Origin: Mucilaginibacter aquariorum
GTDB taxonomy: Bacteria > Bacteroidota > Bacteroidia > Sphingobacteriales > Sphingobacteriaceae
Reading direction: 5' to 3'
Length of the DNA: 64,000 nucleotides
NCBI RefSeq assembly: GCF_024498135.1
Contig: NZ_JANHOH010000002.1
Coordinates: forward strand, 434,001-498,000
Shown: positions 19,421-61,811 of the stretch, piece after piece
Position numbering within the stretch: position 1 is the stretch's first letter
Layout: the number at the start of each line of letters is the position of its first letter
Notes under the pieces: generated by a model
Seen by the model: only the letters and a program-made list of their open reading frames with translations
Database searches by the model: none
What the model was told of the DNA's origin: nothing
Translations under genes and position numbers: made by a program

Positions 19421-19810
19421 ATGAAAGGACGCGTTTTAACAATTATATTTTTGGTACTGGCCGTTGTAATTGTAGGGGTGGTTTACTACCGCTATTATTT
19501 TGTTTTTGGCGAAGGTACAAAGGCCGGCACTATGAACTATTTTGTTAAAAAAGGCTATATGTTTAAAACCTACGAAGGCCGGTTGATACAAAGCGGGATC
19601 CGCAGCCAAACGCAGGGCAATATTTCATCAAACGAATTTATGTTTTCGGTAACCGACCCCAAGGTGGCCGATAAACTTAACCATAGTGCTGGCGCGATGC
19701 TGGAGCTGCATTACAAAGAATACCTGCACACGTTGCCATGGCGTGGGGTAAGTAATTTTGTAGTCGATAGCGTTATGTCGGTTACGCCGGTATCGCCTAC
19801 GGCACCGTAA
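19421..19810 (+). CDS. Hypothetical protein with N-terminal membrane anchor
   Basis: A 129-residue protein: an N-terminal hydrophobic helix (LTIIFLVLAVVIVGVVYY, residues 4-24), then a 100-residue soluble part with a KTYEGRLIQSGIRSQTQGN segment. Position suggests an inner-membrane-anchored domain. Members with this arrangement are annotated in Bacteroidota only as 6-phosphogluconate dehydrogenase-named or unknown proteins; I make no functional call. It follows the HAD gene by 37 bases. Confidence 0.6.
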   Translation: MKGRVLTIIFLVLAVVIVGVVYYRYYFVFGEGTKAGTMNYFVKKGYMFKTYEGRLIQSGIRSQTQGNISSNEFMFSVTDPKVADKLNHSAGAMLELHYKEYLHTLPWRGVSNFVVDSVMSVTPVSPTAP

Positions 19811-19876
19811 TTATTGTAAGCATCTATAGCTGATACATGGCTTTATTATCCATGACATTTGATAGCAAATTGCCTG

Positions 19877-20031
19877 AAGTGTTCACGTTCACAGCCGTGA
19901 ACGCCATCGTGAACGCATAAATAATTGTTAATAAGATGTTTAAAAAATAGGCGACTGACAAAATAACGTCACCATTAATTCCAAAATAAGCACAAGTAAA
20001 ATGGACTATAATATAGTCTGTCACGCTGCAC
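19877..20031 (+). repeat. 155-bp dispersed element, copy 1
   Basis: This segment aligns without gaps to the reverse complement of 39244-39398. By hand count 125 of 155 positions are identical. Conserved blocks include AAGTGTTCACGTTCAC, TTTAAAAAATA and AAATAACGTCACCATTAA. It contains a near-palindrome, GTTCAC/GTGAAC arms around AGCC. It lies between two convergent genes and would not be expected to be coding; a 66-codon minus-strand frame covers it but the other copy is broken by stops in the same frame. No known family recognised. Confidence 0.75.
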
Positions 20032-20105
20032 AGCTCTTTAAAAATATATCATTGCACCTTCAAAGCCTTTAGGAATTTTAAAACTCAGGATGACAGAAAG
20101 GGAAA

Positions 20106-20426
20106 TTAAAACAACTTATCTGCCTTACCCGAGTTTGGTGTAAGTATCTTGCTCAGGTTATATTGCCTTTCTGGTTCGTAATCGCCTTTTATCAGGCCTT
20201 TGTTAAATAAACCTTCTAATACTTCGCGTGTTTGCTGCTGATGGGTAGCTTTATCGGTTTGCGGTTCAAACTCGTCCATTTTTGCGGCAACTTCGGGTGC
20301 GGTGGCATATTCCAGCTGGGCTAAGGCGTATACTACATTATCCTGTAACGAAGCGCCTGCATCGTACTTATGTGGTACGTGCAGGGGCTTGTAATTTTTT
20401 AAAAAATCTTGATCGGGGCTGTCCAT
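20106..20426 (-). CDS. Hypothetical protein, coupled to the DUF2383 gene
   Basis: A 106-residue soluble, acidic protein with an AAKMDEFEPQTDKATHQQ region and a helix EVLEGLFNKGLIKGDYEP that looks like a small winged-helix tail. I do not recognise a family. Its start codon overlaps the stop of the upstream DUF2383 gene by one base (TAATG), so the two are coexpressed. A stress link is inferred from the partner only. Confidence 0.65.
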   Translation of the reverse strand: MDSPDQDFLKNYKPLHVPHKYDAGASLQDNVVYALAQLEYATAPEVAAKMDEFEPQTDKATHQQQTREVLEGLFNKGLIKGDYEPERQYNLSKILTPNSGKADKLF

Positions 20427-20902: not shown

Positions 20903-20974
20903 AGTAGTTTAGTATTTGTTTGTACTAAACATAGCGCTGAAGTTAAATGTTTTAAGTTTATAGAAAATAAAGGA

Positions 20975-21056
20975 AAGCCTCATCTAAATCCTCTCCAAAG
21001 GAGAGGACTTTGAAATTTTTAGAACCCTCTCCTTTGGAGAGGGTAGGGTGAGGCTT
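20975..21056. repeat. Inverted intergenic repeat, CCTCTCC AAAGGAGAGG family (copy 1)
   Basis: AAGCCTCA at the left and TGAGGCTT at the right frame two oppositely oriented CTCTCC-AAAGGAGAG hairpins. Part of the element recurs at 52311-52348. It sits between the DUF2383 gene start and the glycosylase gene end. Intergenic, noncoding. Confidence 0.6.
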
Positions 21057-37516: not shown

Positions 37517-37823
37517 AGATAACAAGCATCTTCCTCCACTCGTCATTGCGAGGTACGAAGCAATCCCTTTAGACAGTTAGTAAATATGCTGAGTCGATAC
37601 ATCATGCCGTTGTTTCGGCATCTCTAATGCTAAGCCTCCTGCTATAACATTCGCCGCTCATTGCCGCGGAGGCTACTTCTTTTGTCTTGATACAAAAGGA
37701 AGCAAAAAATCAAGACAAAAAAATCCTTCCCCACACAGGCCTTTACCTATCGGCCCCGGTTTTTTGTCACCCCAGCGCTCTTTATTAATTGTCCTAAAAA
37801 ATCTCTTAATCTCTAAAATCCGC
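37517..37823. other. Gene-free region of about 307 bases
   Basis: Holds intergenic repeats only. CGTCATTGCGAGGTACGAAGCAATC at 37541-37565 is the same unit as at 43144-43238. A CATCATGCCG...CGGCATCTC stretch follows near 37601-37633. A TTTGTCTTGAT (37681-37691) pairs with ATCAAGACAAA (37709-37719). No gene or promoter could be supported. Confidence 0.6.
37541..37580. repeat. CATTGCGAGGTACGAAGCAATC repeat (copy 1)
   Basis: One arm of the same sequence that forms a long palindrome at 43144-43238. Dispersed intergenic element of Bacteroidota. Confidence 0.6.
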
Positions 37824-39134
37824 TTAATCCGGGTTTTCCTCTATCTTCGAATGTTTCTGCGTATCATTCATCGTAATATATATCACCAATGACACAATGA
37901 TACAGCCCGTAACATACCAGTAAAACCAGTTCTCGTGGCCATAACCTTTAAACATTAACGCGATGTACTCGGCAGTGCCGCCAAAAACAGAAACCGCTAT
38001 AGCATACGGGAAACCCACACCCAGCGCACGGATGTGTGCGGGGAAAAGCTCGGCTTTTACTACGGCGTTAATAGCGGTATAATTACTCACAATAAGCAGG
38101 GCCAGCATTATCAGCGCGAAGGCTACCCAAAAGTTATGGGTTTGGCTCAGGTAAGTAAATATGGGGATGGTTGTCAGCGTACCCAGTATCCCGAAGGTTT
38201 TTAGCATGGGCTTGCGGCCTATTTTGTCAGATACCCAGCCATACAGCGGTTGTATCAGCATAAAAACAATTAGGGTAAGGCTTGATATTAAGGTAGCCTC
38301 GTTCTTGCTGAAACCATTGGTGTTCACCAAAAACTTTTGCATGTAGGTAGTAAACGTATAAAATGCTACCGTACCGCCAATAGTTAACCCTATAACGGTG
38401 AAAACAGCCTTTGGATGCTGCGCTAAGGCCCTTAACGAGCCACGGGCGTTCTTATTTACATCTTCGGGTTTATTGAGTGTAACAGACTCCTGCAGACTGC
38501 GCCTTAAATACATAACAATAATGGCCAGCATAGCGCCAATAGCAAAGGGAATGCGCCATCCCCAGGAATGTAATTGTGCTTCGGTAAGGAAAACGCGTTG
38601 CAATAATATAAGCACGCCAAGGGCCAGCAACTGCCCCATAATAAGGGTTACATACTGAAAGCTGGAGTAAAATCCTCGATCCTTTTTAGTAGCCATTTCG
38701 CTGAGGTAAGTGGCGCTGGTACCATATTCGCCGCCAACGCTAAGCCCCTGTATAATACGGGCCAAAACAAGTAATATAGGCGCGGCTATACCGATGTGGT
38801 TATAGTCGGGGGTGATGGCAATGATCAGTGACCCGGCACTCATTAACAAAACTGAAAAGGTAAGCGCCGTTTTACGGCCGCGTTTATCGGCAAAAGTACC
38901 CATTAACCAACCGCCTATCGGGCGCATTAAAAAGCCGATAGCGAATATCCCTGCAGTATTTAATAACTGCGCCGTAAGGCTTCCCTTAGGGAAAAAAGCC
39001 CCTGCAAAATATAGCGAGAATGCAGAGTAAACATACCAATCGTACCATTCCACCAAATTACCCAGCGACCCACCAACAATTGACCATACACGACTTTGGG
39101 TGGTTTGTGGTTCGGCGATAGTAGTAGTATTCAT
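37824..39134 (-). CDS. MFS transporter of the metabolite:H+ symporter type
   Basis: A 436-residue, twelve-helix transporter. The family signature DRKGRR-like loop appears as TFADKRGRKTALT between helices 2 and 3, and WVSDKIGRKP between helices 8 and 9. Similarity to KgtP/ProP-type organic-acid symporters is suggested by the length and the RSLQESVTLNK loop. Substrate is probably a small carboxylate such as alpha-ketoglutarate or citrate, but this is not proven. It is transcribed divergently from the DUF2851 gene across a 331-base spacer. Confidence 0.8.
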   Translation of the reverse strand: MNTTTIAEPQTTQSRVWSIVGGSLGNLVEWYDWYVYSAFSLYFAGAFFPKGSLTAQLLNTAGIFAIGFLMRPIGGWLMGTFADKRGRKTALTFSVLLMSAGSLIIAITPDYNHIGIAAPILLVLARIIQGLSVGGEYGTSATYLSEMATKKDRGFYSSFQYVTLIMGQLLALGVLILLQRVFLTEAQLHSWGWRIPFAIGAMLAIIVMYLRRSLQESVTLNKPEDVNKNARGSLRALAQHPKAVFTVIGLTIGGTVAFYTFTTYMQKFLVNTNGFSKNEATLISSLTLIVFMLIQPLYGWVSDKIGRKPMLKTFGILGTLTTIPIFTYLSQTHNFWVAFALIMLALLIVSNYTAINAVVKAELFPAHIRALGVGFPYAIAVSVFGGTAEYIALMFKGYGHENWFYWYVTGCIIVSLVIYITMNDTQKHSKIEENPD

Positions 39135-39465
39135 ATACGATCAGGGTTTGGTGCAAGGTAATAAATAAGTTTCCTTTTGTCATGCGAGTTATCAAATCCC
39201 GTGGCCTATTTAGGGCGAAATGAACACTAATTTTTGCGAAACCGTGCAGCGTAACCGACTATGTTATTTGCATGTTTGCCTGTGCTATATTTGGATTTAA
39301 TGGTGACGTTATTTCGTCAGTAGCTTATTTTTTAAACTAGTCATTATCAGTTATTTATGAATTAAAGATGGTGTTCACGGCCGTGAACGTGAACACTTCT
39401 CACGCCATTTGCTAACAAGTTTAAATCGAATTGGTAAGGTTCAGACAAATTTCTTACCTTCCCTG
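39135..39465. other. Divergent spacer with the second 155-bp element
   Basis: Between the MFS and DUF2851 genes. It contains the inverted copy of the dispersed element (39244-39398) and a TATATTTG box at 39286-39293 that could serve DUF2851. The rest shows nothing recognisable. Confidence 0.55.
39244..39398 (-). repeat. 155-bp dispersed element, copy 2 (inverted)
   Basis: Reverse complement matches 19877-20031 at 125 of 155 positions with no gap. It holds the perfect 16-base palindrome GTTCACGGCCGTGAAC at 39373-39388, one base off in the other copy. Frame that is open in copy 1 has two stops here. It lies in a divergent promoter region. Confidence 0.75.
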
Positions 39466-43143: not shown

Positions 43144-43238
43144 CGTCATTGCGAGGTACGAAGCAATCTCTTTAGGACAGTTATACACTTTGCATAAACG
43201 AATAACATAAAGAGATTGCTTCGTACCTCGCAATGACG
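43144..43238. repeat. Long palindromic element, CATTGCGAGGTACGAAGCAATC family (copy 2)
   Basis: A perfect 31-base inverted repeat: 43144-43174 pairs with 43208-43238 around a 33-base loop. One arm also occurs alone at 37541. It lies between the SDR and AraC-type genes and could form a strong hairpin in RNA or a cruciform in DNA. Confidence 0.75.
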
Positions 43239-52307: not shown

Positions 52308-52310
52308 GGG

Positions 52311-52348
52311 AAGCCTCACCCCAGCCCTCTCCAAAGGAGAGGGGGAGG
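52311..52348. repeat. Intergenic CCTCTCCAAAGGAGAGG repeat (copy 2)
   Basis: AAGCCTCACC followed by CCTCTCCAAAGGAGAGG, related to 20975-21056 but without its right half. It lies right after the acyltransferase stop. Confidence 0.55.
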
Positions 52349-59695: not shown

Positions 59696-60172
59696 ATGCC
59701 TGTATACCGTTTTAGCCCGCAGGGCAACATTGACATGAAAAAAACCTGGGTACGCACCATGCTGGTGTACTATGGGATAATTATAGCGGTATTTGCCTAC
59801 AACCTGCTTTATAAAGGGCACAACACATTAAGCATAGGTATTTTTGTAGTTATTGTAGCGGCACTTACTTTTGGATATATCTTCGGGCGCAAAAAGTATT
59901 TCGCCATTATTGATAACACCGAATTGACTGCCGACGATAACGAAGTAACGCTTAGCGTGAAAGACAGGCCCGATATTACTATTGCCTATCGTAACATCAA
60001 AAAGATAACCCATCGTAAAGACGGCATCCACCTGAGCAGTAAACTACCGGCCGAGCCATCCATGATCATCATCAATAAATTCGAGGATTTTTATGGGATA
60101 GAAAAAATGCTTACGGATAAGGTTGACGAAAACGACTTACCCGCTGATAAGCAGGGTGCTACAATTCGCTAA
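59696..60172 (+). CDS. Two-helix membrane protein, unknown
   Basis: A 158-residue protein with two membrane helices (about 17-35 and 42-60) followed by a 100-residue soluble beta-rich tail (KYFAIIDNTELTADDNEVTLSVKDRP, PSMIIINKFEDF). The layout resembles small PH-like membrane proteins of Bacteroidota. Its 3' end overlaps the tryptophan dioxygenase gene by 14 bases on the other strand. Confidence 0.65.
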   Translation: MPVYRFSPQGNIDMKKTWVRTMLVYYGIIIAVFAYNLLYKGHNTLSIGIFVVIVAALTFGYIFGRKKYFAIIDNTELTADDNEVTLSVKDRPDITIAYRNIKKITHRKDGIHLSSKLPAEPSMIIINKFEDFYGIEKMLTDKVDENDLPADKQGATIR

Positions 60173-61714: not shown

Positions 61715-61728
61715 TGCTATACAAACAA

Positions 61729-61780
61729 GGCAATGGTGTTCTGCCTACTTGAACCGCTGCAAAGCTGATGACGCCTACTC
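61729..61780 (+). ncRNA. Fluoride riboswitch (crcB motif)
   Basis: The 5' part GGCAATGGTGTTCTGCC forms helix P1 (AGGC with GCCT) and a loop that pairs with the 3' part: GGTGT with ACGCC (one wobble), the known pseudoknot. The core AACCGCTGCAAAGCTGATGACGCCTACTC matches the crcB consensus, with a 3-bp stem closed by a GCAA tetraloop. CCTAC (61774-61778) can pair instead with GTAGG (61805-61809) just before the ATG at 61812, so a translation switch is likely: fluoride binding would free the start site. Confidence 0.85.
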
Positions 61781-61811
61781 AAATAATTTGTTATTTATTT
61801 GCATGTAGGTT

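Follow-up and report, generated by a model that had tools for sequence, protein, structure and literature searches.

Repeats of the REP, BIME and RIB types are best known from Proteobacteria, and their role is still debated. The RIB/BIME mosaics are about 100 bp in size. Those of E. coli bind IHF and lie at the 3′ ends of transcription units, as stated in the title of Boccard and Prentki (1993; cited in PMC12306157). REPs themselves are 20–40 bp long, most of them with GTAG or CGTC tags (PMC3733652), and REPINs, or RAYT-mobilized REPs, are non-autonomous intergenic palindromes present in many copies (PMC2817692, PMC3116915). The Correia repeats (NEMIS/CREE) of Neisseria are non-autonomous elements of 107 and 155 bp, the longer one intergenic and with an IHF site; they end in inverted repeats of 24 bp and show target duplications. 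MITE families have terminal inverted repeats of 7–24 bp (PMC2229807). The ERIC/RU repeats of enterobacteria, at around 100–170 bp, are also intergenic; their orientation matters to the neighboring genes, their transcripts form long stem-loops, and target duplications are present (PMC2229807).

We analyzed a 64-kb stretch of DNA (the window) carrying two copies of a repeat from a family of about 98-base elements, which occurs in tens of copies per genome in many Mucilaginibacter species and is apparently undescribed; a literature search on Mucilaginibacter repeats found nothing. Like the RIB/BIME repeats, its members are intergenic and numerous, lie at the ends of transcription units and have a palindrome beside an IHF-type site, here a candidate one that fits the consensus in part of the copies. 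They differ in sequence and phylum, in their three blocks at fixed spacing and 10-bp motif array, and in having no Y1/RAYT gene nearby. The 155-bp Correia repeat with its IHF site also resembles the Mucilaginibacter family, whose core, however, has only an imperfect 8-bp match between its ends and no target duplication. REPINs share the many non-autonomous intergenic palindromes, but are mobilized by RAYT, whereas no RAYT or Y1 gene was found linked to the Mucilaginibacter family, and ERIC/RU repeats are similar in size range, in intergenic position and in an orientation that matters to the neighbors, but the Mucilaginibacter family lacks a consensus fold. We do not assign it to a named family, because its placement is that of RIB/BIME repeats, target duplications of the Correia kind were not found, and protein binding is putative. 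It would instead be a further form of interspersed repeat that binds proteins, outside the named families and likened to RIB/BIME by its presumed workings, not by the REP consensus sequence.

Two copies in the window and a genus-wide family

Copy 1, at 19877–20031 (+), aligned to the reverse complement of 39244–39398 (copy 2) with no gaps and 125 of 155 positions identical, just as counted in the preliminary description. A blastn search within the window gave this pair E = 1e-38, a repeat search lengthened it to 170 nt at 79% identity, and the window held only these two copies. The palindrome GTTCACGGCCGTGAAC, previously noted in one copy, was indeed exact in copy 2 (39373–39388) and had one mismatch in copy 1 (19887–19902). 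Judging from the ORF positions, the gene contexts were also as claimed: copy 1 lies in a convergent gap, between ORFs 19421–19810 (+) and 20106–20426 (−), and copy 2 in a divergent promoter, between ORF 37824–39134 (−) and a (+) ORF whose start is at 39409 or later. While the 155-bp match was confirmed, the natural unit is shorter. What the family as a whole shares is the first 98 bp, or core, at 19877–19974 (+) in copy 1 and 39301–39398 (−) in copy 2, scoring 87.4 and 91.6 bits, respectively, over positions 1–98 of our profile (R1).

The right part of the 155 bp is a lineage-specific extension, present in about 21 of roughly 40 copies and always adjoining a core. The extension was considered as a separate MITE, but all 21 matches adjoin a core, and the idea was dropped. 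The resulting composite of about 240 bp, TTGTTAGTAAATGG...GATAACTCAGACTGACA, has approximate outer limits at 19857–20095 (+) for copy 1 (5′ TTGATAGC..., 3′ ...CTCAGGATGACA) and 39178–39418 (−) for copy 2 (5′ TTGTTAGCAAATGG..., 3′ ...GATAACTCGCATGACA). Its ends, read by eye, have an imperfect 16-bp inverted match, and it frequently borders on a second kind of palindromic repeat, TGTCAT..TGACA. Both here and in RYN_316, a relative, the core is part of this composite, which has multiplied recently; the core-only copies are older and are kept at the same loci across species.

Several other features were observed in the window. A perfect 31-bp inverted repeat, CGTCATTGCGAGGTACGAAGCAATCTCTTTA, at 43144–43174 and 43208–43238, has a third copy 5.6 kb away at 37541–37572 and represents another intergenic palindromic repeat family. 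A 35-bp repeat ending in CTCTCCAAAGGAGAGG (20972–21006 and 52308–52342) is a further interspersed repeat, and a fluoride riboswitch aptamer (RF01734, 56.8 bits) is located at 61720–61784 (+).

When copy 1 was searched against its own genome (5.97 Mb, 22 contigs), 40 matches were found, of which 36 spanned about 96 bases or more. A profile search recovered the family from 82 of 149 Mucilaginibacter genomes; the complete chromosome of one of them (G064) has 41 copies. Among 301 genomes from across the taxonomic family, 23 Mucilaginibacter genomes were positive and one other genus gave two single marginal matches, and the exact pattern TGTTCACGTTCACNNCCGTGAAC occurred in GTDB contigs of Mucilaginibacter only, save one Gallionella contig. 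In G064, the 41 copies were evenly distributed over the chromosome (KS p = 0.61), and their strands were unpolarized (25/41 co-oriented, p = 0.21, with the origin assumed at coordinate 0), showing no origin or terminus bias. A replication-polarized or terminus-limited motif had been hinted at by the first 14 of these copies, but was not supported by all 41.

In M. rigui, a family member lies just past the apparent 5S end of what reads from its sequence as an rRNA operon (L241 46–68, minus; L211, L238 50–72), on a contig with double coverage; two other contigs begin at the same sequence. The M. rigui contig NODE_11 was considered as an autonomous transposon, but reads as an rRNA-operon contig.

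Anatomy and constraint of the 98-bp core

An alignment of 76 copies from six genomes gave 98 nearly gap-free columns, AAG-TG...CACCA. Flanking information was about zero on the left and consisted of a weak T-rich tail on the right, and in 93 of 113 copies the stretch from TG to CACCA had a length of 94 or 95. Three blocks are conserved at fixed spacing: A (columns 1–28), with GTTCA/TGAAC motifs on a 10-bp period; B (42–58), containing TGATAATCA; and C (75–98), containing TACTGACAAAATANCGYCACCA. Columns 5–10 and 12–15 were invariant across the 76 copies. In copy 1, block A (19877–19904, +) reads GTTCACGTTCAC-NN-CCGTGAAC and makes up the palindromic start of the TGAAC/GTTCA array, block B (19918–19934, +) is degenerate relative to the family consensus TAAATANCTGATAATCA, and block C (19951–19974, +), GCGACTGACAAAATAACGTCACCA, forms the right boundary. 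The corresponding blocks of copy 2, all on the minus strand, are at 39371–39398 (A, including the exact GTTCACGGCCGTGAAC palindrome), 39341–39357 (B) and 39301–39324 (C).

Across 155 copies, GTTCA started at positions 2 and 8 and TGAAC starts clustered at positions 19, 29 and 39. The most frequent spacing between successive TGAAC motifs was 10 bp (62/119), a period that would put them on one face of the helix. In two more distant genomes (G064 and G053), the three direct repeats are plain; in the lineage of the window, CATAAATA looks like a decayed third repeat. Most copies in G053 have blocks A and B but no block C (loci L362–L382), suggesting that C is a separate module. An inversion of the inner block was suspected in M. 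rigui copies, but a wider alignment gave the same order. Short repeats of the AAACGCCC type precede many copies in M. rigui and in sp. L294 (upstream flanks L171, L174, L177, L180 and L195), and GAAAANCCTTA precedes many copies in G053 (L364–L380).

The IHF consensus, WATCARNNNNTTR, was matched by block B and the bases following it in 44 of 118 copies, mostly at one position, compared to 0.8 in shuffled sequences. It fits the older copies, whereas the young copies of this genome, the two in the window among them, have largely lost it. The genome has one identified gene of the HU/IHF family, at 59778–60044 of its contig C7.

For ten core-only copies, we looked for the flanking sequences in four relatives; at seven loci, one relative or more shared the core at that position. 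In the 15 orthologous pairs from these loci, blocks A, B and C were 92, 83 and 83% identical, compared to 60 and 63% for the spacers, which had few gaps, and 61 and 69% for the 60-bp flanks, which had about 10% gaps. The difference between blocks and spacers gave p = 5e-25, calculated over the 15 pairs, which are not independent. The 18 young composite copies in this genome showed the same pattern, with 95, 88 and 90% identity in the blocks, 65–68% in the spacers and 72–80% in the attached extensions. Gene conversion is an unlikely cause, since the spacers between the blocks remain locus-specific.

Placement, mobility and alternative explanations

Placement was assessed with mechanical ORF calls, using gaps of at least 200 bp from the window and from fetched 8-kb loci as background. 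Almost all copies were intergenic, mainly on the 3′ side of genes, and four fell inside an ORF call. Convergent gaps were enriched (36/92 copies vs. 13/82 background gaps, p = 7e-4) and divergent gaps depleted (7/92 vs. 36/82, p = 2e-8), and in 69 of 92 cases the gene on the right was oriented toward the element. A mobile sequence that is simply tolerated would be expected to avoid promoters as well.

The copies do come and go, as shown by filled and empty sites among relatives. At site 1, the element is present here and in RYN_316 (G107), but M. rigui (G048), G006, G112 and G114 have an empty site; site 2 is filled here, but without the element in RYN_316, G006, G064, G112 and G145. At site 2 in G006 (L139), the spot corresponding to window positions 39178–39418 is taken up by another palindromic repeat, GTCATCTTAAACGTAGTGAAGGATC...; this repeat has outer AACTTGT / ACAAAAGG bases in common with the window element, so that two repeat families use one site.

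These insertion differences, together with the many copies, bear out part of the earlier suggestion that the element is a MITE. In such a non-autonomous mobile element, the motif array and block C would be ends recognized by a transposase acting in trans, and conservation would reflect the needs of mobility with no gain to the host. The multiplication of about 21 composite copies as a unit, the intergenic positions away from promoters and the TG...CACCA ends are consistent with this; these ends (TGTTCACG / TGGTGACG) show an imperfect inverted match, at 6 of 8 positions. Speaking against a MITE, no target-site duplication was detected in 69 copies (best z 2.6 in 315 offset/length tests), no long terminal repeat was found, the inverted match of the core ends being no longer than these imperfect 8 bp, and the GTTCACG motif of the palindrome was absent within about 1.5 kb of 12 Y1 (PF01797) genes in five genomes, one of these genes being in this genome, which led us to reject Y1/RAYT mobilization. 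Furthermore, the block-specific constraint is seen in orthologous copies that have not moved, where selection for mobility would not maintain it. A MITE-like element is possible, but we doubt it. Local duplication of no further significance, which the preliminary description would have favored had there been neither further copies nor compensatory changes, fits the two copies in the window, but has practically no chance given that the genome holds about 40 and the family extends across the genus.

The preliminary description had also proposed a regulatory RNA or a decayed gene. Single copies do fold better than shuffled sequences (z about −1.4 to −3.9), as would be expected from the palindrome in the DNA, and the orientation bias toward the right-hand gene (69/92) would suit a multi-copy small RNA or a structured 3′-UTR element. 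However, RNAalifold gave 0 consensus pairs for the 76 copies, the arms of block B showed no covariation in 110 sequences, and no Rfam match to the element was found in the whole window at gathering thresholds or in 19700–20200 at E up to 1. Block A hardly varies, so that covariation is uninformative for its palindrome. Hairpins in the block-B arms were convincing by eye in some copies but failed a systematic test, and several copies lie beyond a terminator-like hairpin, as read by eye. We consider an RNA improbable. The decayed gene found no support, since conservation is confined to three DNA motifs separated by spacers of fixed length and variable sequence, and there are stops in copy 2. Finally, the palindrome, the helically phased motifs and the tens of copies around the chromosome might indicate a site for a single transcription factor or a chromosome-segregation protein of the parS, matS, SlmA or Noc-like kind. 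We consider this very unlikely, because the copies are depleted from divergent promoters, their uniform and unpolarized placement in G064 weakens the reading, and three blocks over 98 bp far exceed a simple operator.

A proposed docking site for a protein complex

Our preferred explanation, which we hold with moderate confidence, is that the family is a genus-specific interspersed DNA repeat, of which each 98-bp intergenic copy would serve as docking site for a multi-protein complex. While the copies, their boundaries, fixed spacing, per-copy constraint and genomic placement are observations, protein binding, bending and any role are our inference. A putative sequence-specific protein would recognize the inverted GTTCA and direct TGAAC motifs. 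The TGATAATCA block, which in older copies fits the IHF consensus, would owe its bending to a protein of the HU/IHF family, and the third block, TACTGACAAAATANCGYCACCA, would close the site at a fixed distance. With sites mostly beyond gene ends and often between converging genes, the complex may isolate transcription units or anchor the chromosome; proposals of this kind exist for E. coli and its REP/IHF (RIB, BIME) repeats.

More tentatively, and with less expectation that it is right, the sites might represent a genus-wide, sequence-specific nucleoprotein site of a new type, in which helically phased motifs would combine with a bend made by HU/IHF and with the third block at its fixed place, all maintained by selection where transcription units end. 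This would amount to a chromosome-architecture or transcription-boundary system in Bacteroidota, with an undescribed DNA-binding protein.

For annotation, the results are a warning against taking these 98-bp stretches for genes or for known RNAs. An unrelated repeat family in another phylum has a placement similar to that of the RIB/BIME repeats, in enough species and copies for constraint to be measured block by block. If the proteins were found, it would become testable whether such repeats serve the host or themselves.
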